NCBI GenBank assembly: GCA_910575255.1
Contig: CAJTEM010000006.1
Span: 44,357 to 108,356, forward strand
DNA: 64,000 nucleotides
From: Lachnospiraceae bacterium
GTDB lineage: Bacteria > Bacillota > Clostridia > Lachnospirales > Lachnospiraceae
Direction: 5' to 3'
Numbering within the stretch: position 1 is the first letter of the stretch; each line of letters begins with the position of its first letter. The notes under the pieces were generated by a model that saw only the letters and a program-made list of their open reading frames with translations, did no database searches and was not told the origin of the DNA. Positions 44,247 to 64,000 of this stretch are shown here, one piece after another. Position numbers and translations under genes: made by a program.

Positions 44247-44277
44247 CTTAATGAGATAGTACTGGGAGGTATATGCT

Positions 44278-45195: not shown

Positions 45196-45252
45196 TCCTG
45201 GAAAAACAGCCATTATGCAAAACACGAAATCCGTGTTTGAAGGAGGATGCAG

Positions 45253-46587: not shown

Positions 46588-46626
46588 GTTGAATTGTTTG
46601 ATTATCAAATAAATGGAGGAGATGTC

Positions 46627-46977: not shown

Positions 46978-47003
46978 AATAATGTCTTAGCGCATGAATT
47001 TTT

Positions 47004-47050
47004 AAACTCCCCGGCCAGCAAGGAGACAGCCGAAGCCGGGGAGTTTTTGT
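47004..47050. terminator. Bidirectional terminator between cupin and acyl-CoA ligase genes
   Basis: A perfect 12-nt stem (47004-47015 with 47035-47046) is followed by TTTTT on the + strand and by AT-rich sequence on the minus strand. It separates convergent genes. Confidence 0.88.
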
Positions 47051-47125
47051 CGTGAGGCAGGGGAAACTTTGGTCTGCATTTGAGGCTGAAGGTAAGGATG
47101 AGTGCGCAGAAGGCCGGCTACTCAA

Positions 47126-48691: not shown

Positions 48692-48781
48692 AGTATACTC
48701 CTTTTTGTTTTTTACATTATCATAATAAGCAAGAATCATGCCATGTTTGAAAGCCGCAAAATGGTAAAAAGCAGAGAAGAA

Positions 48782-48832
48782 CGTGCAAACTCAACGAGTA
48801 TTGCACGTTTTTTGCACAATGCAGATTGCACG
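48782..48832. promoter_or_regulatory. Upstream activator sites (TTGCAC motifs) before etfB
   Basis: CGTGCAA (48782-48788) and TTGCACG (48801-48807) form an inverted pair. Further TTGCACA (48812-48818) and TTGCACG (48826-48832) follow. The cluster lies 60-110 bp upstream of the -24/-12 promoter, the usual distance for a sigma54 enhancer. The same motif recurs at 53198-53239. Confidence 0.65.
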
Positions 48833-48890
48833 AGGATTGAAAAGAAGAGATATCAGACAGAGAAGTACTGCCGGCAGCGGAGTTCTTGAC

Positions 48891-48906
48891 TGGCATGAAA
48901 GTTGCT
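48891..48906 (+). promoter_or_regulatory. Sigma54 (-24/-12) promoter of etfBA-activase operon
   Basis: TGGCAT-N5-TTGCT with GG at 48892-48893 and GC at 48904-48905, exactly 10 bp apart, matches the TGGCAC-N5-TTGCW consensus with one difference. It lies about 62 bp upstream of etfB. Confidence 0.8.
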
Positions 48907-48968
48907 ATATAACTGTTTGAGATGCTTTCTGCATAGATAGGAAAATATTAAGAAAAGGAGTCTGCAGA

Positions 48969-49769
48969 GTGAATATTTTAGTGTGTGTGAAGCAAGTGCC
49001 AGATACCACAGAGATTAGAATTGATCCGGTTACCAATACATTGATTCGGGCCGGGGTTCCCAGCATTGTAAATCCCTTTGACGGGTATGCACTGGAAATG
49101 GCCGTTCGCTTAAAAGAAGCGGCAGGAGGAAACGTATCTGTTATTTCTATGGGGCCGGAACAGGCGAAGAACGCTTTGAAAGCTTGTATGGCAGTAGGAG
49201 CCGATGCGGCATACCTTGTCAGTGACCGGGCATTCGGAGGATCGGATACTTTGGCAACCAGTTACATTCTTTCCTGCGCAATTAAAAAGATTGAGAAGGA
49301 TAAGGGGGATCCTTTTGACATCATTTTTTGCGGAAAGCAGGCAATTGACGGAGATACCGGTCAGGTAGGCCCTTCACTGGCGGAACATTTAGGCTATCCG
49401 CGAGTCACTTATGTAACAGATGCCAGGTGGAAAGAGGATCATCTGGAGGTAAAAAGGGAGGCAGACAATGGCTTTGACAGATTGAGATGTCCGGAAACAG
49501 TACTTCTGACGGTGTCCAAGACTCCCTATGAGCCGAGATATGCCAATATTAAGTCAAAAATGGCAGCAAACCGGGCACAGATATCAATCATTACAGCAGC
49601 AGATATGGAGATTGATTTAAAAAGAGCCGGACTTAAGGGGTCACCGACAAAAGTTAAAAGGACATTTACACCGGTCCATAATAAGCAGGGAATAAAAATT
49701 CAGGAAAAGAGTCAGGAACGAGCTGTTAAGAGACTGATACAACTGATGACAGAGGCAAAACTGGTTTAA
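48969..49769 (+). CDS. etfB: Electron transfer flavoprotein, beta subunit
   Basis: The 266-residue EtfB starts MNILVCVKQVPDTTEIRIDPVTNTLIRAGVPSIVNPFDGYALE and has the family signature region around IIFCGKQAIDGDTGQVGPSLAEHLGYP and SKTPYEPRYANIKSKMAANR. With EtfA it carries electrons to or from the acyl-CoA dehydrogenase of the next operon. GTG start with AAAAGGAG 8 nt upstream. It is preceded by a sigma54 promoter. Whether the complex bifurcates electrons cannot be judged by eye. Confidence 0.94.
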   Translation: MNILVCVKQVPDTTEIRIDPVTNTLIRAGVPSIVNPFDGYALEMAVRLKEAAGGNVSVISMGPEQAKNALKACMAVGADAAYLVSDRAFGGSDTLATSYILSCAIKKIEKDKGDPFDIIFCGKQAIDGDTGQVGPSLAEHLGYPRVTYVTDARWKEDHLEVKREADNGFDRLRCPETVLLTVSKTPYEPRYANIKSKMAANRAQISIITAADMEIDLKRAGLKGSPTKVKRTFTPVHNKQGIKIQEKSQERAVKRLIQLMTEAKLV

Positions 49770-49792
49770 GAAGTAAGGAGGGAACCTGTAGT

Positions 49793-50818
49793 ATGTGTGA
49801 GAATACTCGTGATGTGTGGGTATATATTGAAACGGAAGAAGGAAAAGCGAAGGCTGTCGGGTATGAGCTTCTGACGCCGGGACGGCTTCTGGCTGATAAA
49901 ATGAGAGTCCGTCTGGTAGCCGTGGTGATTGGAGATCAGGTGGAGAAAATTGCAAAAAAGGCGATTGAATATGGGGCGGATCAGGCGATTGTCCTGGATG
50001 CTCCTGAATATAAGGTTTATAATACGGATGTGTTTGGAGATGCAATGACAGCCTTGATTAAGAAATATCATCCGGAAGGGATTTTGATTGGGGCAACGAA
50101 TAATGGACGCGATCTGGGACCATGTGTATCTTGCCGCATCCGGACAGGGTTAACGGCAGATTGTACAGGGATTGATCTGGATGAAGAAAGCGGAAATATT
50201 GCATGGACCAGACCGGCATTTGGAGGGAATCTGATGGCAGTGATACTTTGTCCCGATACCCGTCCGCAGATGGGAACGGTAAGGCCCGGAGTATTCAAAA
50301 GGCCGGTATCAGACGAATCGAGGTCAGGAGAAGTGATTCACGAAACGGTTCAGGTACGGACAAACCGCATTCAGCTGATAGAGCATGTGCGGGAGATGGC
50401 AGAGAGTGTGAAGCTGGATGAGGCGGAAGTTATCGTAGCCGGCGGCAATGGCCTGGGGAGCAGGGATAATTTCTGCTATATACAGGAGTTGGCCCAGGTT
50501 CTGGACGGTGCGGTAGGAGCATCGAGAGCAGCGGTAGATAACGGCTGGATTTCCCATGCGCATCAGGTCGGACAGACGGGAAAGACGGTTTCTCCCAGAC
50601 TCTATATTGCCTGCGGAATCTCAGGGGCTATCCAGCATATAGCCGGAATGTCAGAATCTGATACGATCATTGCAGTGAACAAAGATCCGGATGCACCTAT
50701 CTTTTCTGTTGCGGATTATGGAATAGTGGGAGATTTAAAAGAGGTGCTGCCGATAATGACAGCAGAATTTAAGAGAATGAAGACAGGAGAGCAGACGGAT
50801 GATAACCATGGGGATTGA
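49793..50818 (+). CDS. etfA: Electron transfer flavoprotein, alpha subunit
   Basis: The 341-residue EtfA has an N-terminal domain (VWVYIETEEGKAKAVGYELLTPGRLLADKM) and the C-terminal FAD-binding signature (AAVDNGWISHAHQVGQTGKTVSPRLYIACGISGAIQH...DPDAPIFSVADYGIVGDLKEVLP). AAGGAGG precedes the ATG. It overlaps the activase gene by 20 nt, so the three genes are translationally linked. Confidence 0.94.
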   Translation: MCENTRDVWVYIETEEGKAKAVGYELLTPGRLLADKMRVRLVAVVIGDQVEKIAKKAIEYGADQAIVLDAPEYKVYNTDVFGDAMTALIKKYHPEGILIGATNNGRDLGPCVSCRIRTGLTADCTGIDLDEESGNIAWTRPAFGGNLMAVILCPDTRPQMGTVRPGVFKRPVSDESRSGEVIHETVQVRTNRIQLIEHVREMAESVKLDEAEVIVAGGNGLGSRDNFCYIQELAQVLDGAVGASRAAVDNGWISHAHQVGQTGKTVSPRLYIACGISGAIQHIAGMSESDTIIAVNKDPDAPIFSVADYGIVGDLKEVLPIMTAEFKRMKTGEQTDDNHGD

Positions 50819-51575
50819 TATTGGATCTGCTGCTTCAAAGGCTGTGATTATGGAAGACGGGGTCCGGATACTGGCAAAAGGAGTGAGATCCTTTGGCATT
50901 GGGACGTCGGGACCCGTAGAGGTATACGAAACAGTGCTGAAAAAAGCGGGCGTTGCAAGAGAGAAAATTGACTGCCTGATGGCGACCGGATATGGCAGGA
51001 CGGGTTTTGCAGAGGCGGACTGTCAGGCCAGTGAACTAAGCTGCCACGGAAAAGGAATGAGCTTTCTTATTCCTGGGATCCGCACTGTGATTGACATAGG
51101 GGGGCAGGATGCCAAGGTCATGGAGATTAACGAGAGAGGCGCTCTTTTAAAATTTGTTATGAATGATAAATGTGCGGCAGGAACCGGACGATTTCTGGAG
51201 GTAATGGCAAAGGTACTTGGCATGAATGTGGAAATGCTGGGAGAGGTATCCCGTGGCTCGGCAAAAGAGCTGAATATCAGTAATGTATGTACGGTATTTG
51301 CGGAATCCGAGGTAATCTCCCACCTGGCGTCTCAGGAGACGGTTCCGGATGTCGTGGCAGGAATCCACAGGTCTGTGGCAAAGAGAGTGGTTGGCCTGGG
51401 CAGCCGGATAGGATTTAAGCCCGATATTGCCATAAGCGGCGGAGTAGCGCTGAATGAAGGTGTGGTTTATGCCATAGAAAAGGAGATAAAATGCCGGATA
51501 CGGACACATCCGGATGCCCAGCTTGCGGGAGCCTGCGGCGCAGCGATATTAGCATACGAAAAGACGGCAAAATAA
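50799..51575 (+). CDS. 2-hydroxyacyl-CoA dehydratase activase (HgdC/FldI-like)
   Basis: The 258-residue ASKHA-fold ATPase has MGIDIGSAASKAVIMEDG, MATGYGR, VIDIGGQDAKVM and NDKCAAGTGRFLEVMAKVLG. Cys125 and Cys164 (ISNVCTVFAESEVIS) correspond in spacing to the two cysteines per subunit that hold the bridging [4Fe-4S] cluster in HgdC. It injects a high-energy electron into the dehydratase at the cost of ATP. The matching dehydratase subunits are encoded 5.5 kb downstream. The ATG at 50799 was kept because GGAG lies 8 nt upstream; an ATG at 50808 is also possible. Confidence 0.93.
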   Translation: MITMGIDIGSAASKAVIMEDGVRILAKGVRSFGIGTSGPVEVYETVLKKAGVAREKIDCLMATGYGRTGFAEADCQASELSCHGKGMSFLIPGIRTVIDIGGQDAKVMEINERGALLKFVMNDKCAAGTGRFLEVMAKVLGMNVEMLGEVSRGSAKELNISNVCTVFAESEVISHLASQETVPDVVAGIHRSVAKRVVGLGSRIGFKPDIAISGGVALNEGVVYAIEKEIKCRIRTHPDAQLAGACGAAILAYEKTAK

Positions 51576-51592
51576 TGCCGTCTTTTTTTACA
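51559..51592. terminator. Terminator overlapping the ends of activase and regulator genes
   Basis: An 11-nt perfect stem (51559-51569 with 51576-51586) is followed by a T-tract on the + strand. It contains the activase stop codon and reaches the stop of the convergent regulator gene. Confidence 0.85.
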
Positions 51593-53048
51593 GAAGATCG
51601 TATTTCTTAAGCTTATACTGAAGAGTCCTTCTGGAAATATTCAGATAATCGGCGGTGCGCTCCCGATGATTGCCGTTAATCCGTAATGCTTCAAGAATCA
51701 CCGCTTTTTCCTGAGCCGCGTTTTGTCCGCGGAAAAGGCGGGCGGAAGGAAGCGGATCCTTTTTCGGGACGGGATCTGCAGCCGGATGGAAAGCGGGAGA
51801 AGGATCTGCCGGAGAACCGATGGGAAGTCCGGTAGGAATACTGGGAGGATTCTCTTTTGCCGCCGTTTTGGGAGGCAGTTCCGTTGCGGATGAGGGGGCG
51901 TTCGCGATAGACAGCAGGGTATCTTCAGGTCCCATGATAACGAGACGCTCTACAAAATTTTTCAATTCCCTTACATTGCCGGGCCAGCTATAGGCCAGCA
52001 TTTCGCTGTAAAGCTGGGGAGAGAAATAACGTTGCCGGCTGTACTTTTCCTGGAAACTTTTTTCATATATCCGTGCCAGAGGGATAATATCCTCTGTGCG
52101 GTTGCGGAGAGCGGGAATATGGAAGGTAAGGACGTTGATTCGGTAATATAAATCAAGACGAAAATTTTTGTCCTTTACGCATTGGAGAAGATCCATATTG
52201 GTGGCAACAATTAACCGGAAATTCACAGGTTTTGTTTTGACGGCGCCGATCCGTTTTACGGTTTTTGTTTCGAGAGTCCGCAAAAGCTTTCCCTGAAGGT
52301 CTAAAGGCAGGGAGTTGATCTCGTCAAGGAACAGGGTGCTGCCGTCAGCACTTTCAATTAATCCCGATTTGCTTTGACTGGCGCCGGTGAAGCTTCCCTT
52401 TTCATAGCCAAAGAGCTCAGCTTCCATGAGAGAGCCGGGGAGAGCGGCACAATCAACGACAACCAGATCCTTATTCTTCCGCTTGCTGGAGGCATGGATG
52501 AATTTGGCCAGGACATCTTTTCCGGTACCGGTTTCACCGGTAATCAAAACCGTTGCATCGGTATCAGCCACTTCTTTTGCTTTGGAGTACAAAGCTCTCA
52601 TGGACGGGCTTTCTGCTATGATCGGATTGTCACCGATCCGAAAGGGAATATTCTCCTCTGAGGCAGTGGAACCAGACTGAATAAAAGTATCCAGCCTTTT
52701 GTAATAGGCAATATAATTCTTCAGAGTGTGGGACTCATCAAAAATCGGGTATACGGTTACCAGCTGCTTGCACAGGACAGAGCCATCGGGAGCCATTACG
52801 GTCTGCACGTCAGAAACAGGGATTTGCTTTTGGCGCACAACATCCAGGATACATTTATCAATCAGGCTGTTGTCCAGCAGATCAAAGCAGGTTAAGGATT
52901 CATAGAAGGATCGGTTTACATTGCGTATTCCCAAGAAGGAGTCATTCATGTATAAGAATTTACCCTTGTGGTCAAATACACAAATCCCCATATTGCTCAT
53001 ATCGTCATGAAATTGTGAGGGAAAAAAGCTATCGTCTTTGAAAGGCAT
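51588..53048 (-). CDS. Sigma54-dependent transcriptional activator (PAS-AAA-Fis)
   Basis: The 486-residue protein has an N-terminal PAS-like sensor (MGICVFDHKGKFLYMNDSFLGI, ~25-130) and an AAA+ domain with Walker A GETGTGKD, GYEKGSFTGA (the sigma54-contact GAFTGA loop with Ser for Ala) and Walker B LFLDEINSL. A Pro/Ala-rich linker and a C-terminal Fis-type helix-turn-helix follow (NGNHRERTADYLNISRRTLQYKLKKYDLL). The ATG at 53048 is preferred to a GTG at 53060 that nearly touches AAGGAG. It lies between two operons that start at sigma54 promoters and is almost certainly their activator; the PAS domain may sense a pathway metabolite. Confidence 0.93.
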   Translation of the reverse strand: MPFKDDSFFPSQFHDDMSNMGICVFDHKGKFLYMNDSFLGIRNVNRSFYESLTCFDLLDNSLIDKCILDVVRQKQIPVSDVQTVMAPDGSVLCKQLVTVYPIFDESHTLKNYIAYYKRLDTFIQSGSTASEENIPFRIGDNPIIAESPSMRALYSKAKEVADTDATVLITGETGTGKDVLAKFIHASSKRKNKDLVVVDCAALPGSLMEAELFGYEKGSFTGASQSKSGLIESADGSTLFLDEINSLPLDLQGKLLRTLETKTVKRIGAVKTKPVNFRLIVATNMDLLQCVKDKNFRLDLYYRINVLTFHIPALRNRTEDIIPLARIYEKSFQEKYSRQRYFSPQLYSEMLAYSWPGNVRELKNFVERLVIMGPEDTLLSIANAPSSATELPPKTAAKENPPSIPTGLPIGSPADPSPAFHPAADPVPKKDPLPSARLFRGQNAAQEKAVILEALRINGNHRERTADYLNISRRTLQYKLKKYDLL

Positions 53049-53197
53049 GAGTCTCTGCACTCCTTACATCTGAATTTTCAATCGGTTGATAAACTACCCA
53101 ATTATTATAACGTTAAAAGCAGCAAAATGCAAACCCCTTACAAGTGCTAAGATGCAATCAGTCCGGTGCAGGAAAGAAGACGGTCAGATAAAGAAAA

Positions 53198-53239
53198 TTG
53201 CACATGTGCAAATCAATGGTTTTGCACATATATTTGTGC
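53198..53239. promoter_or_regulatory. Upstream activator sites before the acyl-CoA dehydrogenase operon
   Basis: A perfect palindrome TTGCACATGTGCAA (53198-53211) is followed by GCACA (53224-53228) and TGTGC (53235-53239). They lie 40-80 bp upstream of the -24/-12 promoter and match the TTGCAC motifs before etfB. Confidence 0.7.
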
Positions 53240-53279
53240 TTTTTCTGCATTAACCGTTGCCGGAGATTCATTTTCGGTT

Positions 53280-53295
53280 TGGCATATAAATTGCA
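53280..53295 (+). promoter_or_regulatory. Sigma54 (-24/-12) promoter of the dehydratase operon
   Basis: TGGCAT-N5-TTGCA with GG at 53281-53282 and GC at 53293-53294, 10 bp apart. It is nearly identical to the promoter before etfB and lies 34 bp upstream of the acyl-CoA dehydrogenase start. Confidence 0.85.
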
Positions 53296-53328
53296 CAATA
53301 TAAGGATAAAGGAAAGATGGAGGTTATT

Positions 53329-54474
53329 ATGCACAACTATTACTTACTGACGGAAGAAGAGAAGGATTTGCAGTTGATGGTTCGTGAATTTATGGAAAAG
53401 GAGGTGGCTCCCGGCCTGGGAGAATATGATGAAAAAAACTATATGCCAGACGAAATCGTGCAGATGGGGATTGAAATGGGACTCCACTGTATGAATATTC
53501 CGGAAGAATATGGGGGCATGGGATTATCGGCAAAGGCGATGTCTGTGATCCGGGAAGAGATCGGAAAGGTGGATGCAGGATTTTCCGTTACCATGGGGAA
53601 TAACTGTCTCGGGGTTACCCCGACTATGATATTTGGGACAGAGGAACAGAAAAAATATGTAGCGGATATCGTAGTGCCGGGAGGATTTAACCCGTTTTGC
53701 CTGACAGAACCACAGGCAGGCTCTGATGCGACGGCAATCCGCACCACGGCCAAAAAGGACGGCAGTGACTATATAATCAATGGAAGAAAATGCTTTATCA
53801 CGAATGGGGACAGGGGCAATATCTATATTGTATTTGCTTATACAGACCGGGAGAAGGGAATCAACGGCGGAATGTCAGCATTCCTGGTGGAACGCAATCT
53901 TCCGGGAGTATCCGTGGGAAAACATGAGAATAAGATGGGACTTCGTACAAACAGTACCTGTGATGTGATTTTTGAGGATGTGCGGGTTTCAAAGAGCAGT
54001 CTGGTAGGAGAAGAGGGAAAAGGATACCAGATTGCAATGAAAACTCTGGAACGGTCAAGGCCGTTAGGTTCCGCAACCTCTGTGGGCATTTGCCAGTCTG
54101 TCATTGATCTCTGCATCCGATACGCCCGGGATCGGGTCGTCTTTGGAAAGCCATTGGCAGCGAAACAGGCAATCAAATTTATGGTGGCTGATATGGAGAT
54201 TCAGACGCAGGCGGCCCGCCAGATGGTTATGTATGCTTCCGATCTGATTGACAATGGAATCTACGACGGAACCGTAGGCTCCTGCGTAAAGGCATTTTGT
54301 TCCGATACGGCAATGAAGGTTACTACGGACGGGGTACAGATTTTCGGCGGTTACGGTTATTCAAAAGAGTATCCGATGGAAAAGAAAATGAGAGACGCGA
54401 AGCTGTTTCAGATTTTTGAAGGAACGAATCAGATTCAAAGGGTTGTCATCAGCGGAAATCTGTTTAAGAGATAA
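53329..54474 (+). CDS. Acyl-CoA dehydrogenase (short/medium-chain type)
   Basis: The 381-residue flavoenzyme has the family signatures CLTEPQAGSDATAIRTTAKKDG and GGYGYSKEYPMEKKMRDAKLFQIFEGTNQIQR; the Glu of FEGTNQ is the expected catalytic base. With EtfAB it would act in reverse as an enoyl-CoA reductase, as AcdA does in reductive Stickland metabolism. GGAGG lies 5 nt before the ATG at 53329; the frame upstream to 53317 lacks a site. First gene of the sigma54-driven operon. Confidence 0.94.
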   Translation: MHNYYLLTEEEKDLQLMVREFMEKEVAPGLGEYDEKNYMPDEIVQMGIEMGLHCMNIPEEYGGMGLSAKAMSVIREEIGKVDAGFSVTMGNNCLGVTPTMIFGTEEQKKYVADIVVPGGFNPFCLTEPQAGSDATAIRTTAKKDGSDYIINGRKCFITNGDRGNIYIVFAYTDREKGINGGMSAFLVERNLPGVSVGKHENKMGLRTNSTCDVIFEDVRVSKSSLVGEEGKGYQIAMKTLERSRPLGSATSVGICQSVIDLCIRYARDRVVFGKPLAAKQAIKFMVADMEIQTQAARQMVMYASDLIDNGIYDGTVGSCVKAFCSDTAMKVTTDGVQIFGGYGYSKEYPMEKKMRDAKLFQIFEGTNQIQRVVISGNLFKR

Positions 54475-54523
54475 GAGACAGCCGGCTATGGCAGAGCAAT
54501 ACGAATAAGAAGAGGAGGATTGT

Positions 54524-55762
54524 ATGGGACCACTGGAAGGAATCCGGGTGCTGGAGCTGTCTAATTTTCTGGCAGCTTCTACAGCCGGAAGGATCATGGC
54601 AGAATGGGGGGCCGAGGTCATTAAGATTGAGCCGCCGCAGGGAGATACTTATCGAAATAACGGGCCTTATATGGGAATCCCGATCTATGAAAAAGGAGCG
54701 GAAGGGAATCCAAGCTATGATAATGAGAACGGCAATAAGAAATGGATTGCATTGAATTTAAAAAGTGTAAACGGAAAGAACGCGTTATTCAGGCTTTTGA
54801 CAACGGCAGATGTGCTGATTACCAATTACAGAGAAGGGGCGTTAAGGAAGCTGGGAATCCATTATGAGGACTTAAAGGAATTGTTTCCCTCCCTGGTATA
54901 TGGCATGATTTTAGGTTATGGCCCCAAGGGGCCGGCGAAGGATAAGCCAGGCTTCGACTATACGGCATTTTATGCCAGATCTGGCCTGATGGCAGATGCG
55001 GCGCCAAGGGGCCAGGATTTGGTTAATACAGTGGCAGGACTGGGGGATCATCTGGCAGCTACAGCTTTGACAGCCGGCATCAATGCAGCATTGGTTAAGC
55101 GGGGACGAACCGGGAAAGGAGATTTGGTAGAGGCGAGCCTGTTTCAGGCAGGATGCTTTGCTTTAAGCTCCGGTTTTTTATCAGCATACAGTGGGAAGGC
55201 CTGGCCAAGAACACGGTTTGAACCGAACAATTCGACCTCGAATACCTATAAGTGTAAAGACGGCGAATGGTTTTATCTGGCGGGAACAGCGTACGACAAA
55301 CAGTGGGCAGATATTGCCGTCAATGTACTCGGACGTCCGGATATGGCCAATGACCCCAGATTCGTTACGAGAAAGGCAGTCGAGGAGACTGGCAGTATGG
55401 AACTTCAGGTAAAAATGATGGACGAGATTTTTGCCACGAAGACATATGAGGAATGGGCGGAAATCATGACAGAGCATGATGTGGCATTTGAAAAGGCGCA
55501 GCATTTTACAGAAGTAGTAAAGGATCTGCAGGCACTGGAGAACGGCTACATTTTCTATCATACCTATCCGAATGGGAAAAAGGTTCCATTTGCCCATGCG
55601 CCGGCAACAATTCATTCGAATGAATGGCCGCAGTTTCAGCCGGCAAAGCTTACCGGGAGTGATACGCTGGAGGTGTTAATGGAAATGGGATATGAGCAGC
55701 AGGAGTTGGAGGATATGATGGAGAGGGGAGATATCTCGGACACGGTCATAACCGTAAAATAG
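54524..55762 (+). CDS. Type III CoA-transferase (CaiB/FldA family)
   Basis: The 412-residue protein starts MGPLEGIRVLELSNFLAASTAGRIMAEWGAEVIKIEPPQGD, typical of class III CoA-transferases. Asp175 in AGLGDHLAAT matches the position of the catalytic Asp that forms the acyl anhydride. It would move CoA from a product acyl-CoA to the incoming 2-hydroxy acid, as FldA does with phenyllactate and cinnamoyl-CoA. GAGGAGG precedes the ATG. Confidence 0.92.
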   Translation: MGPLEGIRVLELSNFLAASTAGRIMAEWGAEVIKIEPPQGDTYRNNGPYMGIPIYEKGAEGNPSYDNENGNKKWIALNLKSVNGKNALFRLLTTADVLITNYREGALRKLGIHYEDLKELFPSLVYGMILGYGPKGPAKDKPGFDYTAFYARSGLMADAAPRGQDLVNTVAGLGDHLAATALTAGINAALVKRGRTGKGDLVEASLFQAGCFALSSGFLSAYSGKAWPRTRFEPNNSTSNTYKCKDGEWFYLAGTAYDKQWADIAVNVLGRPDMANDPRFVTRKAVEETGSMELQVKMMDEIFATKTYEEWAEIMTEHDVAFEKAQHFTEVVKDLQALENGYIFYHTYPNGKKVPFAHAPATIHSNEWPQFQPAKLTGSDTLEVLMEMGYEQQELEDMMERGDISDTVITVK

Positions 55763-55773
55763 CAGGAGGAAGA

Positions 55774-57063: not shown

Positions 57064-57086
57064 AATCGCGAGGAAGGAGCAGAAAA

Positions 57087-58373
57087 ATGGAAGAACAAAA
57101 GCAAACAGCAGTTTCTGAACCGCCGAAAAAGAAAAAGATTTTGTCTAAATCCAGGATTATGGTCGGGGAACAGCTGACGCAGCTTTATCAGGACACCATA
57201 GCAGCAAAGGAGAGAGGGGAAAAAATCGGCTGGTCAGCATCCATATTTCCGCAGGAGATTGCAGAGGCCATGGGACTTTTCATTGTATATCCGGAGAATC
57301 ATGCTGCGGGACTGGCAGCACGCCACCAGGCAGAGGAGTATTTAAATTATGCAGAGGGCAGCGGATATAATATAGATGTGTGCTCATATGCAAGAATTAA
57401 TCTGGCTTATATGGATCTGCTGACGGCACCCGGCAATAATATGCCCAAACCGGATTTTGTATTGTGCTGCAATAACATCTGCAATCAGCTGACCAAATGG
57501 TTTGAAAATGTTGCCGGGAAATTTCAGGTTCCCATGTACCTGATTGATACGGTATATAATTATACATCTGAGGCCTCAGAGGAAAAGGTAAGGTATGTCC
57601 GTTCCCAGCTGGATGATTACATCAGCAGCCTGGAGGCGCTGACAGGAAAGAAGCTCGATCCCCAAAAGCTGGAGAATGTTATGAGGGTGTCTCTGAGAAA
57701 TAAGGATCTGTGGAGAAAAGCAAATGAGCTGCTGGCGCATAAACCATCTCCCCTGACAGGCTTTGAACTATTTAATTATATGTCCTGTATGGTCTGCTGC
57801 CGTGGAAAGGAAAGCACCACAGCAATTCTTGAACAGCTTATCAGTGAGATTGAGGAAAATATCCGGACAGGTAAAAGCACGTTTCCGGTTGAGGAAAAGT
57901 ACAGGATTTTCTGGGAGGGAATTGCCTGCTGGCCTTATCTGGGGCATACGCTCAAGACACTCAGGAATTATGGAGTCAATCTGGTGGCGACAGGCTATGT
58001 GAATGCATGGGGGCTGGAGTATGAGGTAAATGATATGGATGGCCTGGCACGGGCATATATTGATTTGCCGAATAATAATAACAATCTGGATACTATTGTC
58101 TCCAGGCGGATTGAGGCGGTAAAGCAATTTCAGTGTGACGGCGTGCTTTATCATGTAAACAGAAGCTGTAAGGTTATGGATTGCCAGCAATATGAGCTGC
58201 AGCGCCGTGTACAGGAGGCCACAGGAGTTCCTTTTGCGTCCTTTGACGGGGATCAGGCTGACTTCAGAGCTTATAGCGAGGCTCAGTACGAGACGCGGAT
58301 ACAGGGACTGGTGGAACTGATGGAGGAGAGGAAACGAACGCAGAAGGAGGAAGCCGATGGGAAGACTGAGTGA
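57087..58373 (+). CDS. 2-hydroxyacyl-CoA dehydratase, alpha-type subunit (FldB/HgdA-like)
   Basis: The 428-residue protein belongs to the HGD-D family: IGWSASIFPQEIAEAMGLFIVYPENHAAGLAARHQAEEYLNYAEG, CSYARINLAYM, VLCCNNICNQ and YMSCMVCCRGKEST supply the cysteines for a [4Fe-4S] cluster. Together with the next gene's product it removes water from a (R)-2-hydroxyacyl-CoA by a ketyl-radical route after activation by the HgdC-like ATPase. The last 17 nt overlap the next gene. GAGGAAGGAG precedes the ATG. Confidence 0.93.
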   Translation: MEEQKQTAVSEPPKKKKILSKSRIMVGEQLTQLYQDTIAAKERGEKIGWSASIFPQEIAEAMGLFIVYPENHAAGLAARHQAEEYLNYAEGSGYNIDVCSYARINLAYMDLLTAPGNNMPKPDFVLCCNNICNQLTKWFENVAGKFQVPMYLIDTVYNYTSEASEEKVRYVRSQLDDYISSLEALTGKKLDPQKLENVMRVSLRNKDLWRKANELLAHKPSPLTGFELFNYMSCMVCCRGKESTTAILEQLISEIEENIRTGKSTFPVEEKYRIFWEGIACWPYLGHTLKTLRNYGVNLVATGYVNAWGLEYEVNDMDGLARAYIDLPNNNNNLDTIVSRRIEAVKQFQCDGVLYHVNRSCKVMDCQQYELQRRVQEATGVPFASFDGDQADFRAYSEAQYETRIQGLVELMEERKRTQKEEADGKTE

Positions 58374-59475
58374 GTTGCTGAAACAGCTGACAGACATATC
58401 CCAAACGCCGGACATTCAGCTGAAAAAATATTTGGGACAGGGAAAAAAGGTTATTGGCTGTTTCCCTCCATATGTACCAGAGGAGCTGGCGGCAGCAGCA
58501 GGCATGGTTCCCATGGGGATCTGGGGATCCGGGCTTGAACCGGTGCGGGCAAAGGCATATCTTCCGTCATTTTGCTGCCCGATTATGCATTCCAGCCTTG
58601 AGATGGGATTAGATGGTACGGTAAAGGGACTTTCGGCTGTCATGATTCCGGCTCTCTGTGATGCGCTGCGCTGTATTACTCAGAACTGGAAGGTGGGAGT
58701 GAAGGAGATTCCGGTGATTCCTGTTACTTATCCTCAGAACAGGAAAAAGGCAGGGCTTGAATTTCTGGAAAGCGAGTATCATCTTATCCTGAAAAAGCTG
58801 GAAGAAATTGCAGGAAGAGAGGTGGAAAAGACGGCGCTTGAAGAAACCTTGGATCTTTATAATCGCCACAGCAAGGTTATGATGGATTTTGCAGAGACTG
58901 CGAATCAGCATCTGGATATTATCACACCCTTTGTACGTCATGCCGTAATGAAGAGTGCATGGTTTATGGAAAAGGCAGAGCATCTGGAGCTTGTAAAAGA
59001 GGTAACGGAGGAACTGAGGAAGAGGGATCCGATCGTCTGGAAAGGAAAGAAGGTTGTATTGACAGGAATCCTTGCAGAACCAGCAGAATTACTTGCAATT
59101 CTGGAGGAATGCCATATAGCTGTAGTCGGAGACGATCTGGCTCAGGAGAGCCGCCAGTACCGTACGCCGATTCCTGACGGCAGAGACGGGATAGAGCGTC
59201 TGGCAGAGCAGTGGGGGCAGAGAAACTGTTCCCTGATTCATGATACCGGAAAGCGCCGTATCATTCAGATGCGTGAGGCGGCAGAAAACACAGGAGCGAC
59301 AGGGGTGATTGTTTGCATGATGAAATTCTGTGATCCGGAGGAATATGATGCTCCATTGATCGGAAAACTAATGGGAAATTCTGATATCTCCGTACTGAAT
59401 CTGGAGATTGATCAGCAGGCAGGCAGCATGGAACAATTAAGGACAAGAATTGAGACATTTGCGGAAATGATATGA
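58357..59475 (+). CDS. 2-hydroxyacyl-CoA dehydratase, beta-type subunit (FldC/HgdB-like)
   Basis: The 372-residue partner subunit has KKVIGCFPPYVPEELAAAAGMVPMGIWGS, FCCPIMHSSLEMGLDG, IPALCDALRCI and MMKFCDPEEYDAPLI, the cysteines and layout of HgdB/FldC. The start overlaps the alpha-type gene by 17 nt, consistent with equal synthesis of both subunits. The substrate cannot be read from these subunits; lactoyl-, aryllactyl-, 2-hydroxyglutaryl- and 2-hydroxyisocaproyl-CoA enzymes all look alike at this level. Confidence 0.93.
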   Translation: MGRLSELLKQLTDISQTPDIQLKKYLGQGKKVIGCFPPYVPEELAAAAGMVPMGIWGSGLEPVRAKAYLPSFCCPIMHSSLEMGLDGTVKGLSAVMIPALCDALRCITQNWKVGVKEIPVIPVTYPQNRKKAGLEFLESEYHLILKKLEEIAGREVEKTALEETLDLYNRHSKVMMDFAETANQHLDIITPFVRHAVMKSAWFMEKAEHLELVKEVTEELRKRDPIVWKGKKVVLTGILAEPAELLAILEECHIAVVGDDLAQESRQYRTPIPDGRDGIERLAEQWGQRNCSLIHDTGKRRIIQMREAAENTGATGVIVCMMKFCDPEEYDAPLIGKLMGNSDISVLNLEIDQQAGSMEQLRTRIETFAEMI

Positions 59476-59539
59476 GAAAAAGTAACAGCTCAGGGCTATC
59501 CGGGCTATTATCAAAAAAGATACCAGGAGGTAGGAATCT

Positions 59540-60682
59540 ATGAAGAAGAGAAGTTTTGCATCCGTAGCAGCAGTAATGACAGCGGCAGCGATAGGGGTAA
59601 CAGCCTGTGGAGGAGGGGCATCACAGCCGACAACCGCAGCGCCGACTGCAGCAGAGGCAAAAGAGCCTGCAGAAGGGAACAAGGAGGAAGCGGAAGCTTC
59701 TGGAGGCTCCTGGCAGGTCGGCAACATCGAAGAGGTAAGCTATAAGGTTTCAACCTCGGCAAAGTCCTCTACTTTGGATATTCCGGGATATGGCGCAGGC
59801 ATTAAATACTTTTGCGAGGAGGTAGAGAAGCGTTCCGGCGGTAAGGTGAAAATGCAGTTGTTTTTAGATGCTCAGCTGGGAGGAAGCGCGGATGAGATGA
59901 TCGGAGGATGTACTACAGGCGCTTTTGAATTCATTACCCTGAATCAGGGATCCTGGGGGGATTACACGGACGGTTTTATGCCTTTTAATATTCCGTTCCT
60001 TTTTGATTCCAAGGAAATTGCGTATGAGTTTATGGACGGAGAACAAGGGAGGATCATCAGGGACAAGATCATTGAGGATACCGGCGTGAGGGTGCTGTGC
60101 TTTTATGATATGGGCTACCGTCATCTGACCAATGATAAAAGGACGGTGAAGACAGCGGATGATATCAAGGGACTGAAGGTCCGCACCCAGGCAGATCCTT
60201 ATCAGATGGCTCCTTTTGAGGCAATGGGGGCATCGGTTACCACTACCGCTTACTCTGAACTGTTCAGCGCCCTTCAGCAGGGATTGGTGGATGCTCAGGA
60301 AAATCCGTTAAGCAATATTGTCATTAATAAATACTATGAAGTACAGGATTATATGACTTTGACAGGCCATACCTATTCCCTGACTACGATGGCAGTATCT
60401 GAAGACGTCTGGCAATCGATGTCTCCTGACCTGCAGGCATTGATGGAAGAAGTGGCAAGGGATTCGGTTGCTTTGTGTCGCGAGGGGCTTGCCACCTCTG
60501 AGGCGGAGGATCTGGAGACTTTGAAAGGCGTTATGGAGGTATATGAGCCGACAGAAGAAGAGAAGGCCACATTTAAAGAAGCATGCCAGCCATGCTGGGA
60601 GGATATTAAGGCAAGTATTGGCGAGGAACGGTTCAGTGGAATTATTAATGAAATTGAGCGGATTAAGGCAAGCATAAAGTGA
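59540..60682 (+). CDS. TRAP transporter solute-binding lipoprotein (DctP family)
   Basis: The 380-residue protein has a lipoprotein signal (AAVMTAAAIGVTACGGG), a Thr/Ala/Glu-rich linker and a DctP fold. The features are LDIPGYGAGIKYFCEEVEKRSGGKVKMQLFLDAQLGGS, GLKVRTQADPYQMAPFEAMGASVTTTAYSELFSALQQGLVDAQENPLSNI. The Arg in KVRTQ is the usual carboxylate-binding residue. The ligand is probably an organic acid that feeds the pathway. AGGAGG precedes the ATG, 64 bp after the dehydratase gene. Confidence 0.93.
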   Translation: MKKRSFASVAAVMTAAAIGVTACGGGASQPTTAAPTAAEAKEPAEGNKEEAEASGGSWQVGNIEEVSYKVSTSAKSSTLDIPGYGAGIKYFCEEVEKRSGGKVKMQLFLDAQLGGSADEMIGGCTTGAFEFITLNQGSWGDYTDGFMPFNIPFLFDSKEIAYEFMDGEQGRIIRDKIIEDTGVRVLCFYDMGYRHLTNDKRTVKTADDIKGLKVRTQADPYQMAPFEAMGASVTTTAYSELFSALQQGLVDAQENPLSNIVINKYYEVQDYMTLTGHTYSLTTMAVSEDVWQSMSPDLQALMEEVARDSVALCREGLATSEAEDLETLKGVMEVYEPTEEEKATFKEACQPCWEDIKASIGEERFSGIINEIERIKASIK

Positions 60683-60695
60683 AATGAGGTACAAG

Positions 60696-61265
60696 ATGAA
60701 TAATGTTTTCTTGAAAAAATTCCTGAATGAGTTCGAGATTTATATGGGAGCGGTAATCTTTGTCATCATGACAATTCTGTTGTTTGTACAGGTGGTTACA
60801 AGATACTTTTTCGGACATGCCGTGACCTGGGCGGAAGAAATATCCACAATCATGTTTGTCTGGATGATTTATCTGGGGGTTGCGGCGGCAGTGCTGCGCA
60901 GAAAGCATTTGAAAATAGACGCGTTTGTGGAGACATTGCCGTTCAAATATAAAAAAATGTTGCTGATACTTTCAAACGTTATATTTTTGATATTCAGCCT
61001 TTATATTATTTTTCCTATGATGGAGGTGGTAAATAATTATGCAGCGAAAAATGCGGCTTCCTCCATACTGAAATTCCCCAAGGCGGTTTCCTATGTGATT
61101 ATGCCGATTGCATTTCTGCTCACTGCGGTTCGCCTGGTACAGGAGACCATTCGTCTGAGCAAAGAGCAGGAAAAGGAATTAGGTATCTCCAAACCTACGA
61201 TTGATATCGAAGCGCTGGAAGCGGAGGCAAGAGCTGCGGCAGCACAAAGAGAAGGGGGGAAGTAA
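60696..61265 (+). CDS. TRAP transporter small membrane subunit (DctQ family)
   Basis: A 189-residue protein with four transmembrane helices and the DctQ motifs YFFGHAVTWAEEISTIMFVWMIYLGVAAAVLRRKHLKID. The ATG at 60696 has GAGG 6 nt upstream; an ATG at 60684 would place that site inside the coding sequence. The C-terminus carries an unusual ~35-residue charged tail rich in Glu/Ala. Confidence 0.92.
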   Translation: MNNVFLKKFLNEFEIYMGAVIFVIMTILLFVQVVTRYFFGHAVTWAEEISTIMFVWMIYLGVAAAVLRRKHLKIDAFVETLPFKYKKMLLILSNVIFLIFSLYIIFPMMEVVNNYAAKNAASSILKFPKAVSYVIMPIAFLLTAVRLVQETIRLSKEQEKELGISKPTIDIEALEAEARAAAAQREGGK

Positions 61266-61268
61266 AAC

Positions 61269-62549
61269 ATGTCATATATGATTTTCTTTGGTACGATGTT
61301 AATTATGCTGCTGATTGGCGTTCCGATAGGCATTGCACTGGCCGGATCCATGGTTTGTCTTTTGCTCTATGAGCCGGTTACTACTATGACATTTATTACA
61401 CAGGCCATGTACACAGGCGTGGGAAATTTCACTTTACTGGCACTGCCGTTTTTCATGATTGCCGGAAGCATCATGGATACCGGGGGTATTTCCAAACGTC
61501 TTGTCGCGGTAGCCAATGTGATTATGGGAAATATGACCGGAGGATTGGGCATGGTTACGATTCTTGCTTGTATGTTCTTTGGGGCGATATCCGGTTCTGC
61601 TCCGGCAACCGTGTCTGCAATCGGCGGAATAATGATTCCGCAAATGATACGGGCAGGGTACGATAAATATTATGCGACAGGACTTTGTGCGGTCGCAGGA
61701 GGGCTGGGAGTGATCGTGCCGCCGAGTTATCCTCTGGTCGTATTCGGAGTTACGAATAACTGTTCCATCAGTGATCTGTTTCTGGCCGGGTGGGGGCCTG
61801 CAATATTGGTAGGAGTTTTTCTGATGCTTGTAAATTATGCATACTCCAAAAAACACCATTATCTGGGAACCGGAGAGAAGTTCAGTATGAAGCGCTTTGC
61901 CAGAGAATTATGGGATGCAAAGCTGGCGTTTTTTATGCCGGTTATTATTCTGGGAGGGATCTACAGCGGTGCGTTCACTGCGACGGAGGCTGCGGTGGTG
62001 GCAGTTGTGTATGGCATTATCGTAGGAAAATTTGTGTACAGGGAATTGAGCTTTCGTGCACTTTGGAAAATGTACAAGGATAATATCCCGATCCTGGGCG
62101 GTATGATGTTTGTATTTGCTCCGGCAGCAGGTCTGGGAGCCGTATTTGCCATGATGGGAGTTACAAAAGCGATTCAGGCAGGCTTCCTGGCAGTGTCAAG
62201 CAATTTCTTTGTTATTATGCTGTTGATTTTTATTTTGCTGTTTTTTGTGGGAATGTTTGTACAGACTACGCCGGCCATTGTTATTTTCAGCCCGATTTTA
62301 CTTCCGATCGTGGCGGCATTTGGCATGGATCCCATTCAATTCGGTCTGGTCATGACACTTTCGCTGGCTATTGCGTTTGTGACGCCACCGGTAGCGGCAA
62401 ACCTGTTTGTGGCCACTTCGATGACAGGGCTGGGAATGATTCCGATTGTAAAGCGGGCCTTGCCTTTTATTGCCACATTGTTTCTGGCAATGGTTATTGT
62501 CGGATTTGTACCAGGTGTCAGTATGGGACTTTTAGATTTACTCAGATAA
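61269..62549 (+). CDS. TRAP transporter large membrane subunit (DctM family)
   Basis: The 426-residue protein has about twelve transmembrane helices and DctM signatures LTPFFMIAGSIMDTGGISKRL-like, GAISGSAPATVSAIGGIMIPQM and VTPPVAANLFVATSMTGLG. It is the sodium-coupled channel subunit that works with the DctP and DctQ proteins encoded just before it. A run of G gives the ribosome site, 3 bp after the dctQ-like stop. Confidence 0.94.
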   Translation: MSYMIFFGTMLIMLLIGVPIGIALAGSMVCLLLYEPVTTMTFITQAMYTGVGNFTLLALPFFMIAGSIMDTGGISKRLVAVANVIMGNMTGGLGMVTILACMFFGAISGSAPATVSAIGGIMIPQMIRAGYDKYYATGLCAVAGGLGVIVPPSYPLVVFGVTNNCSISDLFLAGWGPAILVGVFLMLVNYAYSKKHHYLGTGEKFSMKRFARELWDAKLAFFMPVIILGGIYSGAFTATEAAVVAVVYGIIVGKFVYRELSFRALWKMYKDNIPILGGMMFVFAPAAGLGAVFAMMGVTKAIQAGFLAVSSNFFVIMLLIFILLFFVGMFVQTTPAIVIFSPILLPIVAAFGMDPIQFGLVMTLSLAIAFVTPPVAANLFVATSMTGLGMIPIVKRALPFIATLFLAMVIVGFVPGVSMGLLDLLR

Positions 62550-62570
62550 AAAGTATAGGATGGAGAATAT

Positions 62571-63773
62571 ATGAAGATTACCAGTGTTGATATTTTTGAA
62601 TGTAATACCCCGAATCCATTGTTAGATCCCTTATTTGTCCGCGTGAATACCGATGCGGGAATCTCTGGTTTCGGAGAGATCGGGCTTGCATATGGCAAAA
62701 GCAAATACGGGGGTCTGGGACAAGCCAGGGATCTGGCTCAGCTCATGATTGGGTGGGATCCCATGAACAATGAAGGAATCTGGGAGATGTTTAAGAGAAA
62801 TACCTTCTGGGGACAGGGCGGACAATGTGGAGGAATCGTGTTTTCTGCAGCTGTCAGCGCATTGGATATTGCAGTATGGGATATTAAAGGGAAAGTTCTG
62901 GGTGTTCCCTGCTATCAGCTGCTTGGAGGGAAAACGAATGAGAGGATCCGTGCATATGCAAGCCAGCTGCAATTTGACTGGGATGAGGTTCACAGAAACA
63001 TTTCCGACCCGAAGGATTACGCGGAAGCTGTAAAAAAAGCCATGGCTCAGGGATATACGGCGGTTAAGGTAGATCCGGTTTGTGTAAAACCGGACGGTGT
63101 GTACGCCAGAGAGCCTAAGCCGGATCCAAATTGGAGGACAAAGGGCGCTTTGTCAGGAGAAGTGATAAATCTGGCATATGAACGCGTAAAGGCTATGCGC
63201 GAGGCAGGCGGCCCCAACCTGGATATTATCCTGGAGCTTCATGCATTTACAGATACCAGTACGGCTATTCGGCTGGGCCAGAAGCTGGAAGAGCTGGATA
63301 TTTACTATATGGAAGAACCTACGGATCCTACCAATGCCGAGTGTATGCGAGAGATTCGGGAAAAGGTAAACATACCGGTTGCCTCCGGAGAACGGATTAG
63401 CAGCCGCTGGGGTTTCCGGGAATTCCTGGAAAAACGTGCGCTCCAGGTGATTCAGCCAGATCTCTGCGTGGCCGGAGGATTTACCGAGGTTAAAAAAATA
63501 TGCGACATGGCCAATGTATATGATGCAGGTGTCCAGATTCATGTGTGCGGAGGCCCGATTGCTACAGCAGCTACCCTGCAGTTGGAAGCAGCGATTCCTA
63601 ATTTCCTGATCCATGAGCTTCACGAAGGGGCATTAAAAAAAGAGATTCGTGAATTGTGCAAATATGACCATATGCCTGAGGAGGGAAGCTACATAGTGCC
63701 GGATCTGCCGGGTATCGGGAATGAGCTGACGGAAAAAGCAATGCGGGAAGCCGTGAGCATGACAATAAAATAA
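62571..63773 (+). CDS. Enolase-superfamily acid-sugar dehydratase (mandelate racemase/galactonate dehydratase-like)
   Basis: The 400-residue protein has the MR/MLE fold. Lys166-x-Asp168 (VKVDPV) lies at the KxK/KxD position, metal ligands are expected at Glu222-x-His224 (LELHAF), Glu248/249 (YMEEPTDP) and Glu274 (ASGERI), and the catalytic His is His324 (QIHVCGGP). A ~20-residue capping insert follows the first motif. Members of this branch dehydrate aldonic acids such as galactonate to 2-keto-3-deoxy acids. The first metal ligand is Glu where Asp is usual. It closes the operon, 21 bp after the TRAP genes, and may act on the imported acid. Confidence 0.88.
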   Translation: MKITSVDIFECNTPNPLLDPLFVRVNTDAGISGFGEIGLAYGKSKYGGLGQARDLAQLMIGWDPMNNEGIWEMFKRNTFWGQGGQCGGIVFSAAVSALDIAVWDIKGKVLGVPCYQLLGGKTNERIRAYASQLQFDWDEVHRNISDPKDYAEAVKKAMAQGYTAVKVDPVCVKPDGVYAREPKPDPNWRTKGALSGEVINLAYERVKAMREAGGPNLDIILELHAFTDTSTAIRLGQKLEELDIYYMEEPTDPTNAECMREIREKVNIPVASGERISSRWGFREFLEKRALQVIQPDLCVAGGFTEVKKICDMANVYDAGVQIHVCGGPIATAATLQLEAAIPNFLIHELHEGALKKEIRELCKYDHMPEEGSYIVPDLPGIGNELTEKAMREAVSMTIK

Positions 63774-63778
63774 AAGAG

Positions 63779-63806
63779 GGGGAGCAGGCAAAATCACCTG
63801 CTCCCC
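63779..63806. terminator. Bidirectional terminator at the end of the catabolic operon
   Basis: A perfect 10-nt GC-rich stem (63779-63788 with 63797-63806) 5 bp after the last operon gene. The stop codon of the convergent hydrolase gene (63794-63796) lies in its loop. U-tracts are short. Confidence 0.7.
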
Positions 63807-64000
63807 TCCAGCCATAATTGATTGAGTTCTTTTCGTTTTTCCAGGAATACGGAATTGTCCCTGCTGGGGTGGATGCGGTTAGTCAGCAGAAGCATGGCTT
63901 CCGAGCGGTTATAGTCTAGCAGCAGGGAGGTTCCGGTAAAGCCGGTATGGTAAAGCGTTTCGCTTCCGTATTCTTTGCTCCAGCCATAGGTGCGGCCAAA
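63794..64000 (-). CDS. Serine beta-lactamase-like hydrolase, C-terminal fragment
   Basis: The last 68 codons of a minus-strand gene enter from the right edge. The visible end (FGRTYGWSKEYGSETLYHTGFTGTSLLLDYNRSEAMLLLTNRIHPSRDN...) has the HTGFTGT motif, the KTG-like box of class C beta-lactamase/penicillin-binding-protein-related esterases, followed by the typical strand and LLTNRIHP. It is probably a peptidase or esterase rather than a resistance enzyme. It converges on the catabolic operon. Confidence 0.8.
   Translation of the reverse strand, partial: FGRTYGWSKEYGSETLYHTGFTGTSLLLDYNRSEAMLLLTNRIHPSRDNSVFLEKRKELNQLWLEGSR

Follow-up and report, generated by a model that had tools for sequence, protein, structure and literature searches.

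We analyzed a 64,000-nucleotide stretch (the window) of contig CAJTEM010000006.1 from the Lachnospiraceae bacterium assembly GCA_910575255.1, a 5.14 Mb genome (G000) in which it lies on contig C6, and found an island that encodes, by family, each enzyme of a reductive coenzyme A (CoA) pathway of the Had or acrylate type, together with an importer, a nickel-pincer isomerase and a sigma54-type activator. We propose, with about an even chance of being right, that the island is a module for reductive fermentation, switched by sigma54, and that it acts on a polar 2-hydroxy acid taken up from outside, most probably a sugar acid or its deoxy form. This proposal builds on the observed gene content, the promoter sequences shared by the transcripts, the conservation of the cassette in other genomes and the placement of its dehydratase in a clade of its own. 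The source bacterium is probably an anaerobe.

The island spans positions 47126–63773 of the window. All the genes named in an earlier interpretation made from the letters alone (the sequence-only reading) are present, intact and in the order it gave, according to open reading frame (ORF) reading and scans with Pfam and NCBIfam models. The first forward-strand operon encodes the beta (48969–49769; ETF Pfam, 144 bits) and alpha (49793–50818; ETF and ETF_alpha Pfam) subunits of an electron transfer flavoprotein (ETF) and a HadI-like ATPase, the 2-hydroxyacyl-CoA dehydratase activase (50799–51575; TIGR00241, 255 bits, cut-off 125). The larger operon, also on the forward strand, begins with an acyl-CoA dehydrogenase family protein, the proposed enoyl-CoA reductase (53317–54474, with a possible start at 53329; Pfam), followed by a family III CoA-transferase (54524–55762; CoA_transf_3, 300 bits), the LarA-superfamily nickel-pincer isomerase (55774–57063), the HadB-like alpha subunit of an (R)-2-hydroxyacyl-CoA dehydratase (57087–58373; HGD-D Pfam; NF052455, 548 bits, below its cut-off of 750; PDB 3o3m, E=1e-141) and the HadC-like beta subunit (58357–59475; HGD-D Pfam; NF052456, 460 bits, below its cut-off of 700). 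Three TRAP transporter genes come next, for the solute receptor DctP (59540–60682), the small membrane subunit DctQ (60684–61265) and the large membrane subunit DctM (61269–62549), all assigned by Pfam. The last gene encodes an enolase-superfamily protein, a putative acid-sugar dehydratase resembling galactonate dehydratase (62571–63773; MR_MLE Pfam; best NCBIfam model PRK14017, 242 bits, below its cut-off of 311). Leftward, the island includes a divergent gene for an AMP-forming acyl-CoA ligase, the proposed primer of the CoA cycle (47126–48691, reverse strand; Pfam AMP-binding; best NCBIfam model PRK06187, 409 bits, below its cut-off of 476), which likely starts with MDNFN at 48691, in an ORF that can open at 48739. 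No 2-hydroxyacid dehydrogenase was found among the scanned island proteins, in support of the earlier suggestion of a reductive 2-hydroxyacyl-CoA pathway with an importer and an isomerase and without a lactate-type dehydrogenase in the cluster.

Three exact matches to the -24/-12 promoter pattern TGGCAYNNNNNTTGCW occur in the 64 kb, compared with a mean of 0.16 in 100 shuffled sequences, none of which reached three, and all three sit at the starts of island transcripts: TGGCATGATTCTTGCT before the ligase (48728–48743, reverse strand), TGGCATGAAAGTTGCT before etfBA and the activase (48891–48906, forward strand) and TGGCATATAAATTGCA before the large operon (53280–53295, forward strand). When one mismatch was allowed the window held six matches against 5.7 expected; mismatched sites are thus no commoner than chance, and only perfect sites carry weight. 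A looser -24/-12 pattern, scanned over 45000–64000, added two matches, both inside genes (54991 and 61924). Half-sites of the form TTGCAC/GTGCAA cluster upstream of the promoters. The cluster at 48783–48831 (half-sites at 48783, 48801, 48812 and 48826, arranged as inverted repeats) is likely the enhancer of the sigma54 activator, and that at 53198–53229 (half-sites at 53198, 53206 and 53222, including the perfect 9-nt inverted repeat ATGTGCAAA/TTTGCACAT) is likely the enhancer of the second operon. Two promoter-upstream stretches totalling 371 bases contain seven of the 23 half-sites in the window, where simple proportion predicts 0.13. One guessed enhancer pattern had no match in the window, and a sigma70 scan gave 24 sites compared with 25.1 in shuffles.

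The activator itself is an AAA+ protein with a Fis-type helix-turn-helix (51588–53060, reverse strand; Sigma54_activat, 221 bits, and HTH_8, 45 bits, both over cut-off); it probably also has a PAS domain at its N terminus (PAS_9, 22.4 bits, short of the cut-off of 27). RpoN is encoded in the same genome. As judged from sequence, the island therefore has the makings of a sigma54 regulon, namely -24/-12 promoters, a sigma54-type activator and RpoN. Control of the ligase, the etfBA–activase operon and the main operon as three joint sigma54 transcripts is well supported by sequence, because perfect promoters and half-site clusters coincide, the arrangement recurs in relatives and RpoN is encoded. 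The sequence-only reading described two operons around one activator; the single regulon holds, with co-regulation favored by the three perfect promoters, and it comprises a third transcript that had been missed, the ligase with its own -24/-12 site.

The arrangement recurs in four loci carrying the cassette (L004, L005, L006 and L127). In all four the looser pattern precedes the acyl-CoA dehydrogenase and the activase, and TTGCAC/GTGCAA half-sites are present in the upstream stretches. The divergent side of L005, L006 and L127 also has a looser site, which there precedes an MFS-type gene, the ligase lying farther along; no looser site was found on that side of L004. The looser pattern had further matches at 13815 in L004 and at 7368 and 13016 in L005. 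The palindrome GTGCAANNTTGCAC occurs twice in each of L005, L006 and L127, the sole carriers among 184 loci, and is absent from L004; in L006 only 0.02 matches would be expected even with one mismatch. The half-sites in both window clusters are spaced differently from this palindrome. Sigma54 control does not in itself set the island apart, since sigma54-type activators, recognized by homology of a widespread domain, also lie near four of 20 other HadBC loci (L165, L166, L171 and L176). Two of these, L165 and L166, are separate HadBC clusters of one genome (G1164), each with the activator and, as read by eye, a gene resembling type I CoA-transferases and an unassigned permease.

The search for the same gene order that the sequence-only reading had suggested was successful. 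The full cassette (ligase, activase, sigma54 activator, dehydrogenase, CoA-transferase, isomerase, HadB, HadC, TRAP and enolase-family gene) is present in L004, L006 and L127, and L005 carries it up to DctP, where the contig ends, so that it is conserved over five genomes with that of the window included. L004 is from an Intestinimonas metagenome-assembled genome, and the carriers other than G000 are Intestinimonas and Pseudoflavonifractor-type genomes. Identities to the window proteins are 77–82% for HadB, 77–80% for the CoA-transferase and 68–72% for the isomerase, 72–82% for the enolase-family protein and 77–80% for DctM (three genomes), and 52–55% for the ligase (L004, L005 and L006; 53% in L127). 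HadC, at 54–56%, is much less conserved than HadB within the four relatives. DNA similarity to L004, L006 and L127 starts inside the ligase gene and stops at the end of the enolase-family gene. The G+C content of the cassette is 47.1% compared with 50.3% for window positions 1–47000, and LarC of G000 is only 33% identical to that of cassette genome G679, which fits horizontal transfer of the cassette without proving it. The cassette is rare in the samples searched: among 299 genomes of its own family, none besides that of the window had an isomerase above 54% identity, and among 300 genomes of the family to which the L004 genome belongs, three, that genome included, had an enolase-family protein at 70% or more.

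Six further clusters (L071, L073, L074, L208, L209 and L210; hereafter type B) contain an activase, HadB, HadC and an isomerase homologue, with identities to the window of 45–48% for HadB and 49–57% for the isomerase. Five of them also have a ligase, an acyl-CoA dehydrogenase and EtfBA (not L210). Within the fetched stretches, a family III CoA-transferase is found in L071, L208, L209 and L210 and not in L073 or L074, and neither TRAP nor the enolase-family gene had a match. Three of the six (L071, L208 and L209) have instead a KdgT-family permease, which in L071 scores 315 bits with Pfam KdgT, below the NCBIfam kdgT cut-off, and has 83–88% identical homologues in L208 and L209; of the other permeases one is of the GntP family and the rest were not family-assigned. 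In L071 a LarC gene over cut-off is followed by LarE- and LarB-type genes, and in L208 LarB and LarE are over their cut-offs and LarC is recognized by 75% homology to L071. L208 also has a CbiM/CbiQ/CbiO-type transporter, with CbiM over and CbiQ below cut-off. This larC/E/B linkage is the strongest support that the sequence data give for the nickel-pincer isomerase being functional in pathways of this kind. In the open-access literature searched we found no description of type B clusters. By eye, the ETF alpha proteins of L071 (6899–8080), L208 (11185–12366) and L209 (7324–8505) carry an N-terminal ferredoxin-like cysteine-rich segment, unlike that of the window.

With two HGD-D subunits and an ATPase activase, the dehydratase is of the Had type. 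Its subunits lie below the HadB and HadC equivalog cut-offs, which are specific for 2-hydroxyisocaproyl-CoA; the HadB cut-off was reached by none of 398 genomes of the phylum. A PF06050 search of G000 returned the HadB and HadC genes and one 38-position fragment below cut-off. Among solved enzymes HadB is nearest to C. difficile HadB (full-length match, 3o3m). We made one HadB/HadC tree from 27 loci (L180 was dropped, as it gave no HadC row of 300 residues) and one HadB tree from 22 of 30 fetched HadB loci, both without Fld, Lcd or Hgd reference sequences. In the HadB trees the window and its relatives form a five-row clade with 100/100 support, and C. difficile HadB falls outside both this clade and the set joining it with type B; the joining branch is weak (90/80 in one tree, 85/67 in the other). 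The tree comparison that the sequence-only reading had proposed thus places the window dehydratase, as far as these sequences indicate, in its own clade beside C. difficile HadB and not within that characterized branch.

Of 24 rows in the HadB tree 11 come with an isomerase, in two separate groups, requiring two changes compared with a mean of 8.2 in shuffles. We give this as a description and not as a test, because the loci with an isomerase were not sampled independently of it: apart from the window, nickel-pincer loci came from searches with the isomerase or the enolase-family protein. HadB contexts were read at 20 loci among the better matches of the phylum search, in which 136 of the 398 genomes matched, and none of these 20 fetched stretches held an isomerase. 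In two of them, L168 and L169, HadBC lies with TRAP, a CoA-transferase-like gene and genes of the beta-oxidation type (thiolase, hydroxyacyl-CoA dehydrogenase and enoyl-CoA hydratase, as read by eye); they possibly represent another hydroxy-acid pathway.

The isomerase scores 491 bits with NF052515, ‘nickel pincer cofactor-dependent isomerase, group 22’, over the cut-off of 400. Residues R68, H100, H165, K178 and H194 are invariant in 18 of 18 aligned isomerases, and their spacing is close to that of R75, H108, H174, K184 and H200 of LarA (numbering of PMC11770544), a correspondence by motif and spacing alone. LarC is encoded in G000 with a LarB homologue beside it, and was found in four of seven other genomes with the isomerase and HadBC (G679, G121, G024 and G635). 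Two more group-22 paralogues over cut-off are present in G000 (C3:142417–143577 and C65:7121–8278). In the isomerase tree, to which 42 of 49 loci contributed rows (the rest were identical copies or shorter than 330 residues), a 12-row clade (100/99) unites the window, its relatives and L071, L073 and L074 (L071 and L073 represented by their identical copies L024 and L028) with L075, L076, L077 and L079. The available portions of PMC7583248, PMC12611868 and PMC11770544 do not name group 22 with an activity, though a member may carry another label there.

We read gene by gene the neighborhoods of 11 of 18 loci holding an isomerase, naming many neighbors by eye. That of L075 has galactarate-dehydratase-like and 2-keto-3-deoxygluconate (KDG)-kinase-like genes, that of L076 a glucarate-dehydratase-like gene and that of L079 a threonate-kinase-like gene, all below equivalog cut-offs. 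Genes resembling 2-keto-3-deoxy-6-phosphogluconate aldolase, sugar kinases or glycerate kinase were seen by eye at L072, L078 and L070; L077 lies amid housekeeping genes, and L069 gave no clear reading. For the TRAP receptor the best solved relatives are 4p47, 7bbr (the second-nearest), 4pdd, 4nq8 and 4p9k, of which the last three presumably hold ligands of the kind described next. According to PMC11668362, 7BBR holds 2-keto-3-deoxy-D-gluconate, 4P47 is ligand-free, and other homologues of the isethionate receptor hold pantoate or erythronate, most ligands having co-purified. The same source gives Arg152, Arg173, Asn213 and aromatic residue 196 as the carboxylate-binding residues of 4P47, which align with R194, R215, N255 and Y238 in the window receptor. 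In the enolase-family protein, E222, H224, E248, E274, D297, H324 and E349 are invariant in 10 of 10 aligned proteins. Six of these (E222, H224, E248, E274, H324 and E349) provide the expected metal ligands and His/His/Glu set, and we take them to map onto galactonate dehydratase. A literature search for the solved homologues 2GL5, 2O56 and 2OX4 and for two locus tags gave nothing on these enzymes among the matches listed.

A sugar acid therefore appears a more likely substrate than lactate, phenyllactate or another aryllactate, or malate, because several group-22 isomerases have sugar-acid-type genes beside them at other loci and the last gene resembles galactonate dehydratase, and also, as against lactate and aryllactate, because the second-nearest solved relative of the receptor holds 2-keto-3-deoxygluconate. 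The KdgT- or GntP-family permeases of the type B clusters and the operon of Sporomusa termitida that combines a LarA-domain protein, an enolase-family protein and UxaA point the same way. Of the acids that the sequence-only reading had listed for testing, lactate, phenyllactate and malate are thus less favored. The same reductive pathway could nevertheless act on a simple 2-hydroxy acid such as lactate, 2-hydroxybutyrate or another aliphatic or aryl acid, with a substituted racemase and an enolase-family gene that serves otherwise. The chemistry requires just a 2-hydroxyl and a 3-hydrogen, C. difficile HadB is the nearest solved enzyme, and the dehydrogenase and ETF alpha score best with acryloyl-CoA reductase models (AcrC in the case of the dehydrogenase), ETF beta second best, though all below cut-off (213/475, 346/600 and 369/640 bits, the last for AcrC). 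We consider such a substrate unlikely in view of the separate 100/100 clade of the dehydratase, the isomerase score over the group-22 cut-off and the retention of the enolase-family gene, at the identities given above, in all three relatives with a contig long enough to include it. A lactate or malate isomerase is further disfavored by a Lar_N match of only 31 bits and by 28 of 500 bits with the malate-racemase model; T166/S167 also stand after the second catalytic His at positions that F/F usually occupies in lactate racemases (PMC11770544), if the two correspond.

Other substrate candidates were set aside. We dropped sulfolactate, which had been considered because a small/large UxaA pair in L123 resembles SuyAB in size; the UxaA proteins there match the galactarate dehydratase model instead, below cut-off. 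Quinate was dropped by reasoning, as its hydroxyl carbon carries no hydrogen on which the isomerase could act. Plasmid homologues of the enolase-family protein (L124, L125 and L126) have MFS/GntR or unrelated neighbors and were uninformative.

The steps of the proposed module, with their order, direction, substrate class and the role of the acid as electron acceptor, we infer from these families. The TRAP system would import the acid, and the nickel-pincer isomerase would invert C2 to supply the (R)-2-hydroxy form. The ligase may prime the cycle with CoA, after which the family III CoA-transferase would take over, charging each new substrate molecule with the CoA of the reduced product. Driven by ATP, the activase would pass one electron to HadBC, where a ketyl-radical reaction would eliminate the 2-hydroxyl and leave a 2-enoyl-CoA. 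EtfBA and the acyl-CoA dehydrogenase would then saturate this intermediate, thereby disposing of two electrons per molecule, and the reduced acid would leave. The enolase-family enzyme could act on the same acid as a 2,3-dihydroxyacid dehydratase, either upstream, making a 3-deoxy skeleton, or in a parallel oxidative branch. The upstream version would need a 2-oxo reductase encoded elsewhere.

The ligase also allows the opposite direction to be considered, in which a saturated acid would be imported, ligase-activated, dehydrogenated and hydrated by HadBC in reverse, and the 2-hydroxy acid freed and epimerized. Dehydratases of the HadBC family are reversible in principle, the ATP-dependent ligase belongs to the regulon, and L168 and L169 combine HadBC and TRAP with beta-oxidation-like genes. 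We regard this direction as quite improbable, given that the second-nearest receptor of solved structure has a hydroxylated acid as its ligand and that the CoA-transferase, dehydratase, dehydrogenase and ETF all have counterparts by kind in the had operon, which is reductive (PMC6384274).

In a version that overlaps with our proposal, one sugar acid would be fermented in two branches, as in Stickland-like metabolism: the enolase-family branch would lead through a 2-keto-3-deoxy acid to pyruvate, and HadBC, the reductase and ETF would be the electron sink. In L128 TRAP and the enolase-family gene form a unit that lacks HadBC, in L129 an isomerase homologue joins them, and the plasmid pSPTER of Sporomusa termitida (L123) has an enolase-family protein, a LarA-domain protein, another tripartite transporter and UxaA. 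Such units without HadBC indicate that this half can stand alone and that the cassette adds the reductive half. No kinase or aldolase for a keto-deoxy acid is found in the cassette, and HadBC acting on a 2,3-diol would give a 3-oxoacyl-CoA; we rate the two-branch version as possible but doubtful. A DUF169 protein gene lies beside TRAP, the isomerase homologue and the enolase-family gene in L129 (4932–5801), and L128 looks similar by eye.

Several points weigh against a reductive module for a sugar acid. Because the cassette encodes no 2-oxoacid reductase, the enolase-family and HadBC reactions do not form one line without an outside enzyme; the expected 2-keto-3-deoxy product would need that reductase, and we therefore keep both the linear and the two-branch versions. 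The 3-oxoacyl-CoA expected from a 2,3-dihydroxyacyl-CoA would leave the acyl-CoA dehydrogenase without a clear job. Only the cassette of the window has etfBA, which was found in none of the cassette stretches of L004, L005, L006 and L127; an ETF alpha match exists elsewhere in G679 and G680 and not in G681 (G797 was outside this search). LarC was not found in three of the four other cassette genomes (G680, G681 and G797). This may reflect one loss, since the three are closely related, or an assembly gap or a real lack of the cofactor. Neither sequence nor profile search reached a solved structure for the isomerase. The isethionate receptor 8t9t is a weaker relative of the TRAP receptor, the KdgT and GntP homologues lie below NCBIfam cut-offs, and no substrate clue is decisive because each of these families (KdgT, GntP and TRAP) has several ligands.

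To the right, the island ends at 63773, beyond which a MurQ-type operon, read by eye, lies on the opposite strand. To its left, a separate upstream operon (42483–46977) encodes a family-5 solute-binding protein, an enzyme resembling methylisocitrate lyase and phosphoenolpyruvate mutase (prpB model, 126 bits against a cut-off of 354), an Na+/H+-antiporter-family permease and a cupin; the last three genes had no match in L004, L005 or L006.

By family the island appears to work like the acrylate and Had pathways, as a HadBC-type system outside the HadB/HadC and acryloyl-CoA reductase equivalogs. FldAIBC-AcdA-EtfBA of Clostridium sporogenes reportedly has the same reductive core; unlike in the window, the aryllactate there is said to be made internally by a dehydrogenase. 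The pSPTER operon resembles the island in joining a LarA-domain protein (38% identical to the window isomerase; assigned by domain), an enolase-family protein (52%) and a tripartite transporter, of the tricarboxylate type, in one operon, and differs in having a two-part UxaA-type dehydratase instead of HadBC and no CoA chemistry; it is a possible sugar-acid pathway with nickel epimerization. The leucine reductive branch of C. difficile has the operon order hadAIBC-acdB-etfBA, and its final step passes CoA to the next hydroxy acid (both from PMC6384274). With this operon the island shares a family III CoA-transferase, activase, HadB/HadC, acyl-CoA dehydrogenase and ETF. It lacks ldhA, adds the nickel-pincer isomerase, TRAP, the enolase-family dehydratase, the ligase and sigma54 control, and has a dehydratase outside the C. 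difficile branch. In the acrylate pathway of Anaerotignum and of the Coprococcus catus lap cluster, an external hydroxy acid is likewise imported, stereo-inverted (in C. catus), CoA-transferred, dehydrated and reduced (PMC8914356 and PMC9205015), and an isomerase, a CoA-transferase, a dehydratase and an ETF-linked enoyl-CoA reductase are present in the island too, by family alone. The island differs in its family III transferase, group-22 isomerase, TRAP and enolase-family gene. In the lap cluster, genes for lactoyl-CoA dehydratase and a CoA-transferase lie with those for a permease and a putative lactoyl-CoA epimerase (PMC8914356). The importer and isomerase on which the sequence-only reading based its pathway logic are present in the island, but combining an importer, a stereoisomerase, a CoA-transferase and a dehydratase is not a new idea. 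The other statement of that reading, that it knew of no described cluster with this exact gene set, agrees with the open-access literature searched, in which we found none.

The names of the relatives, Intestinimonas and Pseudoflavonifractor, suggest that cassette carriers are gut-dwelling. More broadly, we tentatively suggest that Clostridia use the reductive deoxygenation of a sugar acid as an undescribed electron sink that would combine nickel-pincer C2 epimerization, CoA-linked ketyl-radical dehydration and ETF-dependent reduction. This sink would exist in two branches or more, represented by the TRAP/enolase-family cassette and by the KdgT-type clusters. The island joins nickel-pincer isomerases, radical 2-hydroxyacyl-CoA dehydratases and acid-sugar dehydratases of the enolase superfamily, a link that we did not find in the literature searched, and it places group-22 isomerases in a concrete pathway, with a short list of candidate substrates. 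If sugar acids are indeed the substrates, the carriers would have an unrecognized electron sink that yields deoxygenated acids.

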